A stretch of 40,136 nt of DNA from a virus. The DNA lies in the IMG/VR virus record IMGVR_UViG_3300043445_000051, positions 1 to 40,136 of that record; one strand, written 5' to 3'. Positions 714 to 30,982 of this stretch are shown piece after piece (the stretch's first letter is position 1; each line of letters begins with the position of its first letter). The notes below the pieces were generated by a model that ran no database searches, was not told the origin of the DNA, and saw nothing but the letters and a program-made list of their open reading frames with translations. The position numbers were made by a program, and so were the translations under genes.

Positions 714-3700
714 CGTTTGATGATCTCCGCGCGCATTTCTGCAACGCTGATTGAATACGAGTTTGAACCGGAGCCTGTAGCCCTACCCATCAACTCGACA
801 AATGCGACTGAACCAGCGGTAAGGCCGAATCTGTTTGACAAAACCAACTGCCTTGAATCCGTCACGGCGAACTGCCCGCTGGCGCCTGATTGCCCGGAAA
901 TTGGGATGCCCGCCTCAGTCAGCCTGAAAAACATGCTGACATCCGCGGCGCCTGTCACGAGCGTCACAGATACCACGCACGATAGAGTAATAACAACATC
1001 GCCAGAGACCTCGGCAGTGCCGAGTGACAATGTCATCAGCGACGTAAAACCGGTATTGCTAACAGGTACGTTTGATGCTGTTGCGGTCAGCACGGTCGTC
1101 GCCGCCCCCGGCGCTATCTGAACCGTCGCCACCGACCCGGGCAGCGACGTCAGCGACACCTGTCCCGCTCCCGCGCCGCTCAGCGTGCCATTCGCGTTCA
1201 CGGTGATCGCCGTGTTCTTGATCGCCGCATCACCCAGGGTCGTGCCGCCGCTGTCCTTGAGATTCACGCCGGCCTGCGCGCCGACCGTCGCGTTGTCGGC
1301 CGGCTTGCCGGTGCCGCTCACGCCGGACCAAGTCGACGTCGTGCTGGCCAGATCGATATCAGCGCTGCTCGGGCTCCATGCGACCAGGGTATCGCCTTCT
1401 GTCACCGCAACGTCGTCGATATGCAGCTCGTCTCCCGATGCCGTGCTGCCGATGACGTTGATATAAACGCCGCCACCGGTCTCGACACTCGCGCCCCACG
1501 TGATCCGAACGGCGTATCGCTGCCACGTGCTGCTCAGCACCGGATTGAGCAGCGCAGTCGAACTTGCCGGAGCTGCGTTCCACTCAAGGCGCATCCCGCC
1601 CGTCCATCCAGCGCCGCCCGCCACCCCCCGTGCCCACCACGACACGACGTAAGTGCGGCCAGGCTGCCACCCGCCGCGCACGCCGCCCGTGATGCCACCG
1701 CCGGGGTTTATGCCCGACCCGGTCAAAACGCCGAATGTGTTGGTCGTTGCGGCATTGGCCCGCAACCCGAACGCCAGGCCGCCGGTGCGGCCCGCCGGGG
1801 CGGTGTAGGTCGTCGAGATCGCGGCGTTGTTGTACTGCAGGAACCCCCAGGGGATCCCGGCGACCTGCTTTTCCATGCTGCTGTTTGCCAGCAGGTTCTC
1901 GCCGCCGATCTGCCCGGCGAAGTTGCCAGCGCCGATCATGATGCTGCCGTCCACCGTGACGGCCACGCTGGCCGGCGCAGCACTCACGTTGCCAGAGGTG
2001 TCGACGTGCGCCGCCCAGACCGTGTAGCTGCCGCTGGCCGGCCAGGCCCACAAGTAGCTGCTGCCCGTGATGCGCGTGGGCTTGCTCGCCGCCGCGCTGC
2101 CGTCCATCGCCACGCCGGCCGCCCAGCTGGCGCCGCGGCGCAGCTCGGTGTAGGCGTAGTCGGCCTCGGCGCTCGCGTTCCAGGCGATCTGGATCGCCCC
2201 AGGCGCCACCGTCGCCGCCAGCCCGGACACGTTTGCCGGCGCCGCGCTCTTGCCGACCGGCGTGTGCGCGATGTAGGACCAGGGCCCGGCCACGCCAACG
2301 CCGGTGACGGCGCGCACCGCGAACACGGCCACGTAGCCCTCTTCCAGCGGGCCGACCACGGTGCTTGTGGCATCGCCGGCAACGGCCGGGGCCTGCGCCC
2401 ACGTCACGCCATCGGCGCGGCCGTGGCGCACCTCGATGCGCCCGCCGCGCAGCACCTGCACGTCAGCAGTCTGCGCCCACGACACGCGGGCCCGACACTG
2501 GATCGTGCCGTCTCCCATGCGCTGCAGCCAGCTCGTGCCGGAGACCACGACCAGACCGGCCAGCGCGCCAGGCCGGGCGTAGGCGTTGGGCAAGCTGGTG
2601 TTGGGCGTCAGGTCGACCGCCGTGGCGGCACCGAAGGCCCAGTCCCACACCGCCGCGGCCGTCTCGCGCAGCGTCAGAGCCACCGTGCCGGCGCCGAAGT
2701 CGTGCGACCGCTCAACCACCGTGAACAGCTTGCCGGACCAGCCGTAGCGGGTGATCGTCAGCGCCACCACGCTGCCCGGCACCACGTCGTACGCACGCAG
2801 GTTGCAGGTGAGCTGCACACGCATGCCCTGCCGGTTGCGCTCCAGCATGATCTTGGCCAGGCGCTGCGCGCGCATGGCGCCGGTCACCATGTCCAGCGTC
2901 ACGTCAGACGGCAGATCCAGCCCGCCGTCGTCGCTCACGTAGGTGGCATTGGTGACGGGCGGGGCCTCGATGGTCGTCCAGGCCTTGGCCGGCTCGATGT
3001 ACTTGGCGATCACGCGGTTGATCAGCTCGGTGCGCTGCGCAGCCGGCTGGATCGTGATCGCGCCGCCAGCCAGCATGTCCTCGGTGATGGTCATCTCGGG
3101 CGACAGGTGCCGCCCGGCGCGGATGGCGTAGCGCCCCTGAGCCCAGGCCACCGTGCCGGCCATTGCCTCGACCAGCGCATCCAGGTTGTCGCGCGGCGGC
3201 TGGTCGGTGCTCAGCACGCCGTTGCAGGTGTAGCGCTTCTCGGTCACGCCCGTGGCCACGGTCACGAGCTCTTCGCAGGCCAGCTCCTCGAAGAGCAGCT
3301 CGTTGTCCGGCACCTCGGTCGACGTGGCGCCCATGTAGGAGCGCAGGTAGTCGGCCACGCACAAGGCGGCGTTGTCGCTCCAGGCCGTGGACACCGTGAG
3401 CGGCGACCACACCTTGCGCCCGCGCACCACGGCCGAGACATCGGGCAGGCCGGTGGCGCCGAACACGTCCTGGTCGTACTCCAGCCGCACATAGAGGTAA
3501 CACAGGCCGCGCAGGCGGTGCGCGCTGGTCCACTTGCCGCCGCTGGCCGCGATCAGGCCGGCGTCAGCGGTCTGCGTGGCCGTGCCCAGGTAGCGCGTGA
3601 TCTGCACCAGCGGCGTGCTGCTGGCCTGGTAGGTGTAGGCGATGGTGATCAGCGTGCCGGCCGGTATGCCGGTCGTCGTGAGGGTGACCACGTTGCCCGC

Positions 3701-4255
3701 CAGGCTGGCCGCCACGGGTGATGACCCGGTGCCCTCGCCGTCAATCTGCACCGTCGCCACCAGCACGGCCAGGGCGGGCGTGCTGGCCAGCGTCACCACC
3801 GTCGTGGCCCCGCCGCTGGCGGCCACGGTCTGCGTGGTCTCGGCCGTGGTGACGCGGGCAAACCCGGCAGTGGTGACGTTGCCGGCGCCGTCCAGCGTCA
3901 GGGCGGTGTCGCCGAAATACACCGTTTCGATCGCATCGCACTCGTGCCCGGCTAGCAGCACCACCAGGTGCATGAACTCACCCTTGCTGCCCGTGCTCTG
4001 CGCGTAGGCGATGGGGCCCGACACCCGCGCGCGGCCGTACACGATCTTGTGCGGCGCGGTGGCGCTCTGCACCATCTGGTCGCGGTCGCGCTGCGCGTCG
4101 TTGAAGGCGCTGCGGGCCTTGTTGCGGGCGCTGCGCTTGGCGTCGCCGCCGGCCAGCCCGCCGACGACAAACGCCGCCGCCGCAGCGTAGTAGCTGCCGG
4201 TCTTGGCGAACGTGGCAATCGCAGCAGTGACGCCCGAGCCGAAGTCAAATGCCAT
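710..4255 (-). CDS. J-like tail tip (host specificity) protein
   Basis: This 1181-residue protein is of the lambda J / TipJ class, the central tip that contacts the host. The start is the ATG at 4255; the open frame upstream reads through the previous gene and has unnatural composition. The N-terminus has a Gly/Ala-rich segment, then the typical hub region with motifs such as LRGLCYLYVRLEYDQD and DNLDALVEAMAGTVAWAQGRYAIRAG in shortened form. Fibronectin-III-like segments follow, around GPWSYIAHTPV and SGLAATVAPGAIQIAW. A jelly-roll segment (from NLLANSSMEKQ to DELHIDDVAVTEGD) looks like a carbohydrate-binding module. The C-terminal 200 residues are Ser/Thr/Val-rich and probably trimeric fibre. 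The boundaries are approximate. Confidence 0.88.
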   Translation of the reverse strand: MAFDFGSGVTAAIATFAKTGSYYAAAAAFVVGGLAGGDAKRSARNKARSAFNDAQRDRDQMVQSATAPHKIVYGRARVSGPIAYAQSTGSKGEFMHLVVLLAGHECDAIETVYFGDTALTLDGAGNVTTAGFARVTTAETTQTVAASGGATTVVTLASTPALAVLVATVQIDGEGTGSSPVAASLAGNVVTLTTTGIPAGTLITIAYTYQASSTPLVQITRYLGTATQTADAGLIAASGGKWTSAHRLRGLCYLYVRLEYDQDVFGATGLPDVSAVVRGRKVWSPLTVSTAWSDNAALCVADYLRSYMGATSTEVPDNELLFEELACEELVTVATGVTEKRYTCNGVLSTDQPPRDNLDALVEAMAGTVAWAQGRYAIRAGRHLSPEMTITEDMLAGGAITIQPAAQRTELINRVIAKYIEPAKAWTTIEAPPVTNATYVSDDGGLDLPSDVTLDMVTGAMRAQRLAKIMLERNRQGMRVQLTCNLRAYDVVPGSVVALTITRYGWSGKLFTVVERSHDFGAGTVALTLRETAAAVWDWAFGAATAVDLTPNTSLPNAYARPGALAGLVVVSGTSWLQRMGDGTIQCRARVSWAQTADVQVLRGGRIEVRHGRADGVTWAQAPAVAGDATSTVVGPLEEGYVAVFAVRAVTGVGVAGPWSYIAHTPVGKSAAPANVSGLAATVAPGAIQIAWNASAEADYAYTELRRGASWAAGVAMDGSAAASKPTRITGSSYLWAWPASGSYTVWAAHVDTSGNVSAAPASVAVTVDGSIMIGAGNFAGQIGGENLLANSSMEKQVAGIPWGFLQYNNAAISTTYTAPAGRTGGLAFGLRANAATTNTFGVLTGSGINPGGGITGGVRGGWQPGRTYVVSWWARGVAGGAGWTGGMRLEWNAAPASSTALLNPVLSSTWQRYAVRITWGASVETGGGVYINVIGSTASGDELHIDDVAVTEGDTLVAWSPSSADIDLASTTSTWSGVSGTGKPADNATVGAQAGVNLKDSGGTTLGDAAIKNTAITVNANGTLSGAGAGQVSLTSLPGSVATVQIAPGAATTVLTATASNVPVSNTGFTSLMTLSLGTAEVSGDVVITLSCVVSVTLVTGAADVSMFFRLTEAGIPISGQSGASGQFAVTDSRQLVLSNRFGLTAGSVAFVELMGRATGSGSNSYSISVAEMRAEIIKR

Positions 4256-25891: not shown

Positions 25892-26247
25892 AGGGTCTTC
25901 ATCAACTGGTTGAGCATCAGGCGCAGGTTGGCGTTCATCTGGTCCATCTCGCCGGCCAGGCGCTCCACCTGCTGGCGCGTGGCGTTGAGCTGGGTGTAGA
26001 TGGCGGCCAGGTCCTCGTGCTTGGGCGCGCTGGCGGCGTGCGAGTCCAGCCGCTCGATGCGCAGCGCCTGGTCATGCAGTCGCTGCTCGAAGCTGCTGTC
26101 AATCGCCTCGATGGCGTCCTTCAGGGCCGCGCCCATCTCGTCGACCTTGGTCGCGGCGGCCTTGCTGCGGTTGGACAGCATCACCGCCAGCGTGATCAAC
26201 AGATTGGTGGCGGCGATGGAGGCGATGAAGGTCTCGTAGGTCGTCAT
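25888..26247 (-). CDS. DUF2730 phage protein (membrane anchor plus coiled coil)
   Basis: The 119-residue protein has one N-terminal hydrophobic helix (about 5-26: FIASIAATNLLITLAVML) and then a long coiled coil (about 33-115, with EQRLHDQALRIERL and QVERLAGEMDQM). This is the DUF2730 pattern of Mu-like phages. It is the first gene of the late operon. It could be linked to lysis or head assembly; its function is unknown in Mu-like phages. The start at 26247 is the only ATG that keeps the hydrophobic helix. Confidence 0.8.
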   Translation of the reverse strand: MTTYETFIASIAATNLLITLAVMLSNRSKAAATKVDEMGAALKDAIEAIDSSFEQRLHDQALRIERLDSHAASAPKHEDLAAIYTQLNATRQQVERLAGEMDQMNANLRLMLNQLMKTL

Positions 26248-26486
26248 GGGTGGGCGGCGCTGGGGTGGGTGAGTGGGGGTGCCGGGTGGGGCAGACGGGG
26301 CGAATCATTCGCGCGCGCGCCCGCGCGCGCGAGGCTGCGGGGGTACGGTGGGAGACAGAGTCGGCGCGCCGTGCCGATCGCACGATCAGCGGCGTTGTAT
26401 CGGTACACCTACGGATGACCCGCGTTAATCGCTTGGGATAAAGTAGATGTCCATGCTGCGTTGCAGCAACAACCCCAAGCAATTCG
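26248..26486. promoter_or_regulatory. Divergent control region between late operon and plus-strand genes
   Basis: This 239-bp gap separates the late minus operon and the plus-strand pair. It contains an alternating CG run (26310-26331), which could form Z-DNA, a dyad GATCG-CA-CGATC (26376-26387), and on the minus strand a TACAAC-type -10 candidate near 26391-26396. In Mu, late promoters need an activator that binds a dyad just upstream. On the plus strand a TAAAGT -10-like hexamer lies at 26439-26444. None is decisive. Confidence 0.4.
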
Positions 26487-26717
26487 ATGCAACACCTGCT
26501 GAACCTGCTGGCTGGTCTGGGCGAATCGCTGGGCGCACTAGGCTCAGCCCCGCAATACCGGTATCCCAGGCTAGGTGACCGGCGTGCAGACCTTGATCAC
26601 CTGCGCTCCGACATGGGCCGCGTCGGGCAAGACCTCAGGAACACCGCAAAGCGGGCCCTGAGCAACGACTCTGGGAGGAGTCATGGCGCGATCGACAACA
26701 GCCCAAATCCGCGATAA
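26487..26717 (+). CDS. Small plus-strand protein upstream of DUF2335
   Basis: The 76-residue protein starts MQHLLNLLAGLGESLGAL, an amphipathic helix, then is Arg/Asp-rich (GDRRADLDHLRSDMGRVGQD). No domain is recognised. It overlaps the start of the DUF2335 gene by 35 bases, so the two probably form one unit. There is no clear ribosome site before the ATG. Its base composition is lower in GC than the surrounding operon, which suggests separate origin. Confidence 0.5.
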   Translation: MQHLLNLLAGLGESLGALGSAPQYRYPRLGDRRADLDHLRSDMGRVGQDLRNTAKRALSNDSGRSHGAIDNSPNPR

Positions 26718-27072
26718 GGACCGTCACATGACGGTGTCGGCGCACGAAAGCGATGCGCCGCTGTTGCCGATGTCCCAGATAGAGCGCCTGCATGAGCTTT
26801 GTCCGGATCGGGTGCCTTGGGTGTTCGATGAGACAACCAAGGAAAGCGATTTTCGACGTGCAGAAACCGCACGCATCAACACGCTCGTGTTCGCTGAGCG
26901 CATGGCCGGTATCGTCGCCGGTCTGGTGATTGCTTGTATCGCGCTGTTCGCCTCGTATCACTTGGCGCTCGCGGGGCACGATACGGTGGCCGCCATCATC
27001 GGTGGCACCACGGTCATCGGATTGGTCTCGGCCTTCGTGATTGGCGCGAAACGCAAGCCTGCCCAAGCGTAA
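26683..27072 (+). CDS. DUF2335-like membrane protein
   Basis: The 129-residue protein follows a strong ribosome site (GGGAGGAG at 26671-26678, close before the ATG at 26683). It has SQIERLHELCPDRVPWVF, then the basic/acidic segment ESDFRRAETARINTLVF, two membrane segments (about 74-93 and 97-120) and a KR tail. The order matches DUF2335 predicted membrane proteins. It faces against the phage operons, next to a terminator. A holin-like or exclusion role is possible; none is established for the family. Confidence 0.75.
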   Translation: MARSTTAQIRDKDRHMTVSAHESDAPLLPMSQIERLHELCPDRVPWVFDETTKESDFRRAETARINTLVFAERMAGIVAGLVIACIALFASYHLALAGHDTVAAIIGGTTVIGLVSAFVIGAKRKPAQA

Positions 27073-27082
27073 GCCCAGACGC

Positions 27083-27106
27083 AAAAAAGCCCGCACGCGG
27101 CGGGCT
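27083..27106 (-). terminator. Rho-independent terminator of the early operon
   Basis: On the minus strand the hairpin AGCCCGC-CGCGT-GCGGGCT (27106-27088) is followed by a run of T (27088-27083). It lies 33 bp after the DUF2786 gene stop and just beyond the DUF2335 gene end, so it also faces the plus-strand transcript, although that side has no T-tract. Confidence 0.85.
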
Positions 27107-27138
27107 GGTTCGTTCAGGGGCGGGTGGCCTCGAAGGCG

Positions 27139-27873
27139 CTACCGGGTCAGCCGCGGTGGAGCCAGGCCGATCTGCTTGGGCGCGCTGGTGCCCGTCACGG
27201 CGTGGTCCAGCTGCGCCTGAGCGCCGGCCCGATGGCCGTCCTGGTAGCTGGTGTCCTTGACGTTGCGACCCACGTCGCGCCGGACGGGATCGAATGTCTT
27301 CATGCCCGCGTGGCGCGCCTGCATGTACTGCTCGATCAGTGCTTGTTGCCGCTCGGCACCGGTCAGGCGCTCGACGAGCGGGCGCACGCCCAGCACCCAG
27401 CCCAGGGCGAAGGCGTCACCGCGGGCGGTCTTGGTGGCTGTCTTGCAGGACTTGGACTGAGCCTGGATGTGCGCCTTCCGGGCACGGTCGCACTGGCGGT
27501 GCAGCACGTCGAATGTGTAGCTGGCCACCTCGGCCCAGGGGGCTGGCGCCACGAAGATCACGCGGCTTTGCGTCAGTACCTTGAACGACGGGCCCAGCTT
27601 CCTGGAGGTGTTCCAGAACATCTCGGCGCCGAAAGCGTCACAGATCACGCGCCCCAGGCTGGCCTTCCATGCCGGGATCAGGCCGCCGCACACTGGCTGG
27701 CTGGGCGCCTCGCCGATGGACGACAGCTCGATGTCGGCATCGCTCAGGCCATGCTCCTGCATCAGCTTCTGGGCCTGGCGCAGTGCGGCCGCGGCCTCAT
27801 GCGGCTGGTTGCTCCTGGAAAGGGCCAGGCACTTCTTCACCTTGGCCAGCGCTTTGTCTCGGTCCATGGTCAT
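27139..27873 (-). CDS. DUF2786-domain protein
   Basis: The 244-residue protein has the DUF2786 start DRDKALAKVKKCLALSRS, then HEAAAALRQAQKLMQEHGLSDADIE (about 1-50), the usual N-terminal helical domain. The middle and C-terminus (about 65-200: LGRVICDAFGAEMFW, SYTFDVLHRQCDRARKAH, ALGWVLGVRP) resemble the companion region found in phage proteins of this type. The role is unknown; these genes occur in early regions of Mu-like phages. It overlaps the upstream gene by ATGA and is the last gene before the terminator. Confidence 0.82.
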   Translation of the reverse strand: MTMDRDKALAKVKKCLALSRSNQPHEAAAALRQAQKLMQEHGLSDADIELSSIGEAPSQPVCGGLIPAWKASLGRVICDAFGAEMFWNTSRKLGPSFKVLTQSRVIFVAPAPWAEVASYTFDVLHRQCDRARKAHIQAQSKSCKTATKTARGDAFALGWVLGVRPLVERLTGAERQQALIEQYMQARHAGMKTFDPVRRDVGRNVKDTSYQDGHRAGAQAQLDHAVTGTSAPKQIGLAPPRLTR

Positions 27874-28526
27874 GCTCCTTCAGTGGTGTCAGTCGGCGCG
27901 CCGCCGGTCTGGCGGGCCTTGATGGCGGCGATCTGGGCGCGCAGCTTCTGGCTGTAGCGGCTGGGGCCGGTCGGGGCGGGCACGGCGATGACCGGCGGCG
28001 CCGACGCAGCGGCGGCAGCGGGGCGGGGTGCGCCCTCGTCCAGGGCCTGGCCGGCGGCGGCGAGCAGGGCATCCATGTTGAGCGGGCCGCCCACGTGCGC
28101 CCGGCCGCGCAGGCTGGCTTCGCGCTCGCGCTCGGCCTGGCTCTCCACCTTGTCGACGATGCCCAGCAGCACCTCGTACAGATAGCCGTGGCCGCTCATG
28201 GGCAAGGTCAGGTTGCCCTTGTCCCGGGCGGCCAGCACCAGCTCGATGGCGGCCTGCCACTGCGCCGGGGTGGTGGGCCAGTCGCGGCCCTTCCTGGTGA
28301 TGGCGCCGCGCTGCAGGTCGGGCAGCAGCTCGGACAGCACGGCCAGGGTGCGGCTCATGGACAGCGCGCGCTTGGCCGGCCGGAACAGCGCCACATAGCG
28401 CAGCAGCAGTGCGCCCATGGGCACGCCCTGGCGCAGCAGGTCGGCCAGCACGTGGCGGCCTTCCTCGTGCGCCAGCAGGATGTCGAGGTCCATTTCCGCG
28501 TTACAACCGGGGCACTTCAGGCGCAT
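27870..28526 (-). CDS. Zinc-ribbon early protein
   Basis: The 218-residue protein opens MRLKCPGCNAEMDLDILLAHEEGR: a CxxC pair, which suggests a zinc ribbon with only one visible knuckle, followed by an acidic helix. The rest is helical (GALLLRYVALFRPAKRALSMSR) with a Trp/Pro region (RKGRDWPTTPAQWQAAIE). Similar proteins occur in early regions of B3-like phages, and I recall no function for them. A replication-related role is conceivable. The Ala/Pro-rich linker near 165-190 is disordered. It overlaps both neighbours. Confidence 0.65.
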   Translation of the reverse strand: MRLKCPGCNAEMDLDILLAHEEGRHVLADLLRQGVPMGALLLRYVALFRPAKRALSMSRTLAVLSELLPDLQRGAITRKGRDWPTTPAQWQAAIELVLAARDKGNLTLPMSGHGYLYEVLLGIVDKVESQAEREREASLRGRAHVGGPLNMDALLAAAGQALDEGAPRPAAAAASAPPVIAVPAPTGPSRYSQKLRAQIAAIKARQTGGAPTDTTEGA

Positions 28527-29041
28527 GGTGACGCCTCCTTGGCCTGGCCTTCACCTGGCCCCAGCGGGCGGGCCCAATACAGGACGATGCCGTTGACGCG
28601 GCCGCCGCTCTCGCACACGCGCCAGTCCTGGCCGTCGAACCAGGCGCACTCCCACTCCCCCGGGCTGTCGTGGCTGGCGAACCAGATCAGCACCCGCTCG
28701 TCCGCATCCGGCATGGCGTGCTCGGGCGGCTGCCAGGCCAGCGCGGTGGTGATGAGCGTGGGCGGGGCGACGACTTCGCGGATCTCCCAGACGCCACAGC
28801 CGGAGATGGCCGCGGCCGCGCCGGGGCGTGGTTCGTCCTGGTCGACCTGGTGCACGGTGACGGCCGCCGGGCCGGCGCCCAGGGCGGCCAGCTTGTGCGC
28901 CAGGCGGCGCACGGCGTGATCGGCGCCCGCCGTGGCGCTGGCAATGGTGCGCCGGCCCTGCGCACGGCTGGTGGCCAGGTAGGCGCCACCGCTGAACTGC
29001 ACCACGCAGGTGATGACGGGGCTGCGATCGGTGGTGCTCAT
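28517..29041 (-). CDS. DUF551-like protein
   Basis: The 174-residue protein has an N-terminal region with repeated Ala/Arg and a C-terminal segment (about 100-165) with WQPPEHAMPDADERVLIWF, the Trp pattern EWECAWFDGQDWR and a closing VNGIVLYWARPLGP. This is the layout of DUF551, a small domain common in phages, in which the last Trp-x-x-x-Pro is characteristic. Its function is unknown. It overlaps the genes on both sides (ATGA upstream, ten bases downstream). Confidence 0.7.
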   Translation of the reverse strand: MSTTDRSPVITCVVQFSGGAYLATSRAQGRRTIASATAGADHAVRRLAHKLAALGAGPAAVTVHQVDQDEPRPGAAAAISGCGVWEIREVVAPPTLITTALAWQPPEHAMPDADERVLIWFASHDSPGEWECAWFDGQDWRVCESGGRVNGIVLYWARPLGPGEGQAKEASPCA

Positions 29042-29265
29042 GAGGCATCCCCTCGGCGAAGTACTTCCTTGATGCGGATGGTGGCCAGGTCGCGCAGCTC
29101 GGCGGCGACCGCGGCACCGCGGATGTGGCTGACAACATCGATGTACTCATGGCGCTGCGCCGTGGTGGACAGGCGCGCCACGCGGCGGGCTTCGCACTCC
29201 AGCCGCCAGGCGTTGCTGTCGTCGCTCACTTCGGTGCCGTCGATCAGGGTGACGGTGCGGCTCAT
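29038..29265 (-). CDS. DUF7696-like small protein
   Basis: The 75-residue protein starts MSRTVTLIDGTEVSDDSNAWRLECEA, in the pattern of the DUF7696 family of Mu-like phages, followed by an Arg/Ala helix and IRIKEVLRRGDAS. Its start sequence CATGAGCCGCAC is repeated exactly at the end of the Gam gene (29809-29820), which shows that the two genes were once joined. It overlaps the DUF551 gene by ATGA. Confidence 0.7.
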   Translation of the reverse strand: MSRTVTLIDGTEVSDDSNAWRLECEARRVARLSTTAQRHEYIDVVSHIRGAAVAAELRDLATIRIKEVLRRGDAS

Positions 29266-29820
29266 GGTGCGTCACCTTGTTTCAGGGATACGCTGGGCGC
29301 CCCAAACAACCAGGCAGAGAGGTCACAGAATGTCCAGTACCACCCCACGTGCGCCCGAAGAAAGCCCGTGGTATCCGCTACATGTGTCAGCCCGAGCCGA
29401 CGAACTGATCGACGAGCTCGGCGAAGTGCAATGCCGGCGACTGTTCGATGCACTGCGTACCACCAGCGTGGCGCAGTGGCTGTGCTGGCTCGAAGATGCT
29501 CGGGCAGAGATCGGTGCATACGATGGGCTAACTGCGAAACAGCGAAAACGCCGCCTGCAAGATCCTGGCGATATCGACGCACTGCGGCTTCACCATGCAT
29601 GCGTCTTCGTTGAGTTGTGGCGCGCGCGGATGGAGCGGAACTATCGGCAGCTGCCGCCACGAGGGATGCCCCTCGACCGGCCTGAAGATCACCGGTCGAT
29701 GCTGCTGGATGCGATGGCGGCGCACAGCGCGTGGCAAGACCTCGATCTGTGGCCGTTTGAACGGCATCTGCAGGAGGAATGGCGACTGCCGTTCGATCCG
29801 GACTAGCAGTGCGGCTCATG
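29255..29820. repeat. 12-bp direct repeats bounding a plus-strand cargo gene
   Basis: GTGCGGCTCATG occurs at 29255-29266 and at 29809-29820. On the minus strand it is CATGAGCCGCAC. At the left copy it holds the start codon of the DUF7696-like gene; at the right copy it holds the Gam stop (GCATGA). With the segment between them removed, Gam and the DUF7696-like gene would overlap by ATGA like other genes here. Confidence 0.85.
29330..29806 (+). CDS. Plus-strand cargo (moron-like) protein of unknown function
   Basis: The 158-residue protein starts at the ATG at 29330, after AGAGAGG (29316-29322), a fair ribosome site; the longer plus frame upstream crosses other genes. It is mostly helical and rich in Arg, Asp, Trp and Leu, with RADELIDELGEVQCRRLFDAL, AQWLCWLEDARAEIGAYDG, KQRKRRLQDPGDIDALRL and a Trp-rich end (DLWPFERHLQEEWRLP). 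There is no signal or membrane segment. I recognise no family. It reads against the phage operon, between exact repeats, so it is probably expressed in the lysogen. A TTGTTT/AAACAA dyad (29277-29282 and 29304-29309) lies upstream. Confidence 0.7.
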   Translation: MSSTTPRAPEESPWYPLHVSARADELIDELGEVQCRRLFDALRTTSVAQWLCWLEDARAEIGAYDGLTAKQRKRRLQDPGDIDALRLHHACVFVELWRARMERNYRQLPPRGMPLDRPEDHRSMLLDAMAAHSAWQDLDLWPFERHLQEEWRLPFDPD

Positions 29821-30373
29821 CGGCACCCCCGGTCGTGGCCAGCGCGCCGGGCTCGGCCGTGGCTTCGAAGGGGATGACGAAGAAGTCCTCGACGCCGCTG
29901 ACGAGGGTGATGCCGGCCACGCCGCGCACCTGGTCGGGGTCGTTGAGGATGGCTTCCTTGTTCACTTCGAGCTTGGTGCGGATGAAGGGGTCCAGGTGCA
30001 GGCGCTGCAGGGTCTCGATGACGGCGTCGGCGCCGGTGACGCGCACGCTGGGCGGGCGCTGGCGCCAGCCCACTTCGCCGGTGACCAGGTTGGCGGTCTT
30101 GCCGAGCTTGTCGTTCTCGCCGCACAGGTCGACGCGGTGCGCCTCGCACCAGGTCTGCACGCCGGTCTGGATGGCCTGCATCTCGTCGGCCAGGGGCGCG
30201 AGGTGCTTCTGGTGCTCTTCGGTGATGGCGGCGATCTGGTCGTTCATGACGGTCTTGATCCGCTCGAACTGGCGCTTGATGTCGCCCAGGCGGCGGATGG
30301 CTTCGGCCACGGCGGTCTTGCTCTGCGGGACCGGGGTGGCAATGGCTTTGGTCTTGATGCGGGTGGTGGCCAT
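29816..30373 (-). CDS. Host-nuclease inhibitor Gam
   Basis: The 185-residue protein has two long helices (QSKTAVAEAIRRLGDIKRQF, and MNDQIAAITEEHQKHLAPLAD) and a conserved central part with WCEAHRVDLC, GKTANLVTGEVGWRQRPPSV and LDPFIRTKLEVNKEAIL. This matches Mu Gam, a dimer that coats DNA ends like Ku and protects incoming or exposed phage DNA from exonucleases. It lies after the Mor-like gene in the early operon. Its last codons carry the repeat that bounds the cargo insertion. Confidence 0.92.
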   Translation of the reverse strand: MATTRIKTKAIATPVPQSKTAVAEAIRRLGDIKRQFERIKTVMNDQIAAITEEHQKHLAPLADEMQAIQTGVQTWCEAHRVDLCGENDKLGKTANLVTGEVGWRQRPPSVRVTGADAVIETLQRLHLDPFIRTKLEVNKEAILNDPDQVRGVAGITLVSGVEDFFVIPFEATAEPGALATTGGAA

Positions 30374-30433
30374 GGTGGGCTCTGTGGTGGTGGTGGTTGG
30401 GGGGCGGTGGTGGTTGGGAGGGAAAGGACGGCT

Positions 30434-30982
30434 TCAGCCGCCGAACAGGTCGACCTGGCCGTCGGGCAGCTCGTCGCTGCGGTTGACGATGACTTGCACG
30501 TGGCGGAAGGTGAGCGGCTGGCCGGCGCTGGCCAGGGCCTCGCACAGTTCGCCCAGGGCGGCGTAGGAACTCAGGGCCGGGCCGCCGGGCGGGTGGACGC
30601 GGGTGAGTGCGTCGAAGCGCGCGCGCAGCCAGCGGTCGCGCACGGCGTCGAGCAGCTGGGCGCACACGGGCACGTCCAGCAGGGTGCCGCCCCAGTGCGC
30701 GGCCAGGGCCTGCATGGCGGGCTCGCCCAGCAGCTCGGCGTAGCGCGCCCAGCGCCGCGCGCCGTGGGCGTTGGCGTCCGGGTGCTTGGGGATGGGCAGC
30801 TGGGCGCCGGGCAGGCGGTTGAGCAGCAGCAGCGCCACCTCGTCGCCCAGGTGCCGGCGCAGGGCCAGCGCGCTGGGCGGCAGCAGGGCGGCGAAGTCCT
30901 GCAGGGCCTGGGCATCCAGCCGGCGCGGTGGCGGCAGGGCCGGCACGCTGGCGGACGACAGAGGGGGCAGCTGCGGGTGCAT
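30434..30982 (-). CDS. Mor-domain-like early protein
   Basis: The 182-residue protein shows two copies of a pattern seen in the N-terminal part of Mor-type activators: EVALLLLNRLPGAQLPIPK and EPAMQALAAHWGGTLLDVP (an Ala/Leu helix then a GG/PG turn and a strand). After that comes VRDRWLRARFDALTRV and a helical C-terminus. I do not see a clear Mor-type DNA-binding helix pair at the C-end, so it may be a non-activating relative. It overlaps the GemA stop by one base. It could be the missing middle-late activator. Confidence 0.5.
   Translation of the reverse strand: MHPQLPPLSSASVPALPPPRRLDAQALQDFAALLPPSALALRRHLGDEVALLLLNRLPGAQLPIPKHPDANAHGARRWARYAELLGEPAMQALAAHWGGTLLDVPVCAQLLDAVRDRWLRARFDALTRVHPPGGPALSSYAALGELCEALASAGQPLTFRHVQVIVNRSDELPDGQVDLFGG

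Follow-up and report, generated by a model that had tools for sequence, protein, structure and literature searches.

How does a gene read in the opposite direction come to lie within an early operon in which several neighbours are joined by ATGA overlaps, and could the short repeat at its two edges be the footprint of its arrival? This question is posed by a 40-kb virus record (IMG/VR record IMGVR_UViG_3300043445_000051), analysed here over its whole length of 40,136 nucleotides, hereafter the window. The record represents a transposable phage of the Mu/D3112 type, with a Mu-type transposase, transposition protein B and gam all encoded on the minus strand, which is the direction of the early operon. 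In its structural half, the best DNA match is the terminase of Pseudomonas D3112-like phages; for the early half, megablast returned no DNA-level relative in the phage collection. The gam gene (29816-30373, minus strand) encodes a Mu Gam-like DNA end-protection protein (PF07352, phrog_491) scoring 128.7 bits against PF07352, above the curated cut-off of 28.3. After it come 550 bp and then a 75-residue DUF7696 gene (29038-29265, minus strand; PF24751, phrog_11642), which is itself ATGA-coupled to the next early gene (28517-29041, minus strand), of 174 residues and without a family.

At both edges of the gap between gam and the DUF7696 gene stands the same 12-mer, GTGCGGCTCATG – at 29255-29266 and at 29809-29820 – with 12 of 12 positions identical, the copies lying 554 bp apart start to start and their identity extending to neither side. 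Read on the minus strand as CATGAGCCGCAC, the left copy includes the DUF7696 ATG, and the right copy the gam stop, its TGA lying inside the word. The sequence, coordinates and register of the two copies are thus as the initial annotation had given them, as is their relation to the downstream start and to the gam stop. When the flanks are joined with one copy kept, the result reads ...GGTGCCGC-ATGA-GCCGCACC..., in which the gam end GCA TGA overlaps ATG AGC CGC; the claim that removing the block restores an ATGA overlap, resembling several other early junctions of the same phage, is thereby confirmed.

Two features had been overlooked: an open minus-strand frame through the block and a third exact copy of the 12-mer. 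The latter (28348-28359, minus strand) lies in frame, reading MSRT, within the LSMxR motif of a 218-residue gene (27870-28526), and matches the left copy, ~0.9 kb away, over 14 nt. As this motif is a conserved coding one, the third copy is an independent coincidence, and the word is able to arise by itself. We also asked whether the 12-mer might be a regulatory site present in several copies and rejected the idea, there being only three exact copies, one of them inside a conserved protein motif.

What lies between the two edge copies is a block of 542 bp (29267-29808), the previously reported 554 bp being the start-to-start spacing. Its G+C content is 62%, compared with 68–70% around it, and it contains a plus-strand ORF of 158 residues (29330-29806) preceded, six bases before its ATG, by the Shine–Dalgarno-like AGAGAGGT (29316-29323). 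The ORF has a G+C content of 62% (gam, 68%; window, 70%) and a GC3 of 0.67 against 0.83–0.97 in the neighbouring early genes. The block is foreign-looking, and in both G+C and GC3 the ORF differs from its neighbours in the manner by which morons – single horizontally acquired genes – are recognised.

The overlooked frame raises the possibility that there is no scar at all and that the block is an ordinary co-directional minus-strand gene of 185 residues, the 12-mer then being merely the starts of two MSRT genes. This frame (29262-29819, 185 codons, MSRTASPDRT...) is open from end to end and ATGA-coupled to both gam and the DUF7696 gene, a register with a chance of one in three, and similar-sized co-directional genes do follow gam in relatives. 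The frame stays open in only 8–18% of codon shuffles of the plus-strand gene, a proportion that can be counted in its favour, albeit one large enough to make its openness unremarkable. Against it, a codon model built from 67 homologous phage genes (55–67% G+C) favours the plus strand by 80 bits (72–80 bits over two models), and in a control all 81 gene pieces favoured their true strand, by at least 103 bits. Furthermore, the G+C contents of the minus frame by codon position (0.71/0.65/0.49) are unlike those of every native gene – the plus-strand ORF has 0.74/0.47/0.67 – and no homologue of the 185-residue product was found; a single-sequence fold bearing on this frame was uninformative. The plus frame is the best-scoring of the six and lies above the 95th percentile of shuffles, its lead over the runner-up, a frame interrupted by three stops, being small. 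We therefore judge the minus frame non-coding, regard the reading built on it as very unlikely, and take the plus-strand gene to be real, foreign and the block's one convincing gene, as had been proposed.

That the 158-residue protein belongs to no known family is borne out in Pfam, PHROGs, NCBIfam and PADLOC, and no homologue was found in the genome, viral, phage and plasmid collections, nor in 399 Burkholderiales and 369 class-level genomes; matches below threshold look unreal, the one at locus L071 falling in an unrelated ORF. A single-sequence AlphaFold model is all-helical with a pLDDT of 51 (no confident fold), and the structure search that had been suggested, run with this model in Foldseek, gave nothing at E ≤1. 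The proposed anti-phage role thus finds support neither in a PADLOC model nor in a structural match. Nor is expression in the lysogen supported: it had been read from the strand only, and a consensus scan of 28900-30500 – weak evidence in itself – found no sigma-70-like promoter. Terminator-like sites are not positioned behind the gene; given the weakness of such a scan, we class it only as moron-like cargo. As a weak guess, its product may be an accessory, host-directed protein.

A second low-G+C stretch (26400-27130, 60–64%) lies between the early and later genes of the window, with plus-strand ORFs of 76 residues (26487-26717) and 129 residues (26683-27072), the latter apparently a small membrane protein without a Pfam match. 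Its end abuts a hairpin that resembles a terminator of the early operon and carries a T-run (about 27082-27106); the stretch is likely another accessory locus. It is bracketed, from inside both neighbouring genes, by a 16-bp exact direct repeat, TGCTTGGGCGCGCTGG (26018-26033 and 27173-27188), which is probably a product of codon bias.

If the block is a late arrival, the junction that it entered may be sought in relatives. Across ~40 gam loci, drawn from IMG/VR and from beta- and gammaproteobacteria, the gene directly after gam is co-directional and mostly joined to it via an [AG]TGA overlap, and none of the loci has a clear opposite-strand insert at this point. The genes directly after gam vary greatly in identity, some being similar in size to the 185-residue frame. 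The position is very variable (loci L004, L014-L037 and L157-L170), often with the ATGA coupling kept, and has the look of a turnover hot spot. In a Burkholderiaceae MAG (L017), gam ends with GCATGAGCCGC in a single copy, without the block, and is followed by an unrelated gene starting MSRV. Of the expectation that relatives would lack the block and carry one 12-mer, these loci show the absence of the block and, in L017, this single related word, but the full 12-mer was not found in 748 kb of relatives, and none of them has gam next to DUF7696. Indeed, neither a single-protein search nor the subsequent alignment, covering 80 DUF7696 loci, revealed in the collections searched any locus that joins the two genes directly, so that the empty site, the ancestral gam–DUF7696 junction and the order of events are inferred.

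Some indication of that order is given by the start of the DUF7696 protein. Its closest homologues mostly begin M-x-TVTL (MQTVTL, MNTVTL, MTTVTL or MPTVTL), as opposed to MSRTVTL here, and the first codons of the gene therefore look borrowed from a gam-type junction; against this, one homologue (L085, MTRDVTL) has a start equal in length to that in the window.

The main competitor is chance: the gene would still be a moron, but the repeat would be a coincidence, arising from the ATGA start context at the gam end and a DUF7696 gene that independently begins MSRT, under strong codon bias. A bare 12-mer repeat is indeed unremarkable, since the window contains 97 pairs of exact direct repeats of at least 12 nt less than 1.5 kb apart, against 34.5 ± 6 expected from a third-order Markov model. 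The initial annotation had counted many unrelated repeats of this kind against its own reading, and this objection holds in part, yet the placement of this pair on start and stop codons is unusual. The early region (25.6–37.6 kb) has 31 repeat pairs, and no other of them has both copies so placed; the probability of such a coincidence anywhere in that region is 0.04 by circular shift and 0.017 in Markov sequence. As a placed repeat, it is probably more than chance.

Part of the match is nevertheless to be expected: in these phages, ATGAGC is the most frequent of the coupled start contexts (31 of 254), and ATGAGCCGC occurs in 4 of 254. Both L017 and L004, with unrelated downstream genes, have TGAGCCGC at gam; the third exact copy in the window arose independently; and 15 of 11,042 stop/start pairs share at least 12 nt, although these pairs are partly redundant and include the window's own. 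Moreover, the ATGA itself has to be duplicated anyway if both genes around an insertion into an ATGA overlap are to stay intact. On the other side, 12 nt are common to only 6 of 32,131 pairs of random coupled start contexts, and to none of 968 pairs within one locus; the placement statistics and the lack of the 12-mer in the relatives likewise speak against coincidence. Weighing the two sides, we consider chance unlikely, though with a share that has to be reckoned with.

The reading that we prefer, at a probability of roughly 0.58, is that a moron was gained in an ATGA-coupled gam junction and that its gain left the 12-bp direct repeat. The proposal of a precise insertion with duplication of the junction fares well as regards the foreign block, the direct junction in relatives and the better-than-chance placement; it is tempered by an empty site that is a reconstruction and by the share left to chance. 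It is probable, but not certain, that the 12-mer marks an insertion, and we infer that it was made by the gene gain. The DUF7696 gene would first have been joined to a gam-type start (MSR), so that, before the gain, the two genes would have overlapped as ATGA around CATGAGCCGCAC; the moron would have come later. Recombination bringing in the gene would then have left junction sequence on both sides, gam keeping its stop and the downstream gene its start, with the block providing the latter with a new Shine–Dalgarno sequence, possibly the AAGGTG at 29273-29278, which lies in the block.

A 7-bp inverted repeat, GGTGACG...CGTCACC (29248-29276), encloses the DUF7696 start and would cover this Shine–Dalgarno sequence; as a hairpin it was rejected, its folding being no better than that of shuffles (z = +1.25).

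As for the route of entry, the best fit is illegitimate or short-homology recombination, in the course of replication or of co-infection, which can leave a direct repeat of the junction. Transposition is less likely, since the block has neither terminal inverted repeats nor a transposase. A compact one-gene block flanked by exact direct repeats is, admittedly, also what a non-autonomous transposable element with a target-site duplication would look like. However, no inverted match of at least 6 nt was found within 60 nt of either end, the block encodes no transposase or recombinase, no other copy of its protein turned up in any collection, and an element choosing its target at random would seldom hit an ATGA overlap. 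This makes a transposable element the least probable of the explanations considered.

Whether the same route has been used elsewhere was approached through a scan of the relatives' loci, in which ATGA-containing edge repeats of at least 12 nt occur around 2 of 345 consecutive coupled genes, both encoding RdgC. In one locus (L031), RdgC (PF04381; 6477-7409) directly follows gam and is flanked by a 16-mer, GGAGGTGGCGACATGA, of which exact copies stand at the stop of gam and at that of RdgC; L171 is the same element with the same repeat. In the other, a Comamonas prophage (L014), RdgC (2970-3884) belongs to a coupled operon and is flanked by GGTGCAGCATGA (12 nt), found at the junction of its start and again at that of its stop. 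Like the cargo gene of the window, these genes sit within an ATGA-coupled chain, with an edge repeat that includes the ATGA (16 and 12 nt); unlike it, they are co-directional, and their repeats lie on the stop/Shine–Dalgarno side, partly under functional constraint. As these repeats include a Shine–Dalgarno sequence and the protein ends EVAT/EVAT, they may be convergent. The idea that RdgC exemplifies junction duplication in general was rejected: among 80 viral RdgC loci, only L171 had the repeat, which adds no independent case and leaves the signal with two independent loci. That genes repeatedly enter the ATGA-coupled early operons of transposable phages by a route in which the coupling junction is duplicated, with ATGA-containing direct repeats of 12–16 bp left at both edges of the newcomers – the cargo gene of the window and RdgC in L031 and L014 – is an improbable reading.

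The closest parallel for cargo between direct repeats comes from mycobacteriophage LRRHood, whose gene 43–46 segment lies between direct repeats of 29 bp that stand at gene ends and occur as a single copy in relatives (PMC3029335). The phage studied here likewise has exact short direct repeats at both edges of its cargo, at gene ends. The two differ in scale and in completeness: in LRRHood, 29-bp repeats surround 1.35 kb with four genes, including a stolen repressor, and related phages have a true empty site, whereas here 12 bp surround a single ORFan, and no true empty site was found. The cargo gene also differs from a classical moron, no promoter/terminator pair having been found in this phage. 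Another parallel is provided by the Pseudomonas D3112-like phages, which carry single accessory ORFs of lower G+C content between core genes, mostly in the left arm (PMC4378225); the cargo gene resembles these, among which an unknown function is usual. In the survey of that group, no recognisable flanking sequence was seen and the mechanism of acquisition was called mysterious (PMC4378225), whereas in the present phage a 12-bp repeat marks the edges. How single cargo genes enter without breaking tightly overlapped neighbours is, for Mu-like phages, called mysterious (PMC4378225). Traces at the flanks are seldom observed; the 12-bp junction duplication would, if verified, be one usable trace of such an entry. 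If it is true, the repeats around other newcomers in ATGA-coupled operons should follow the sequence of the junction at each site and not that of an invariant recombinase site.
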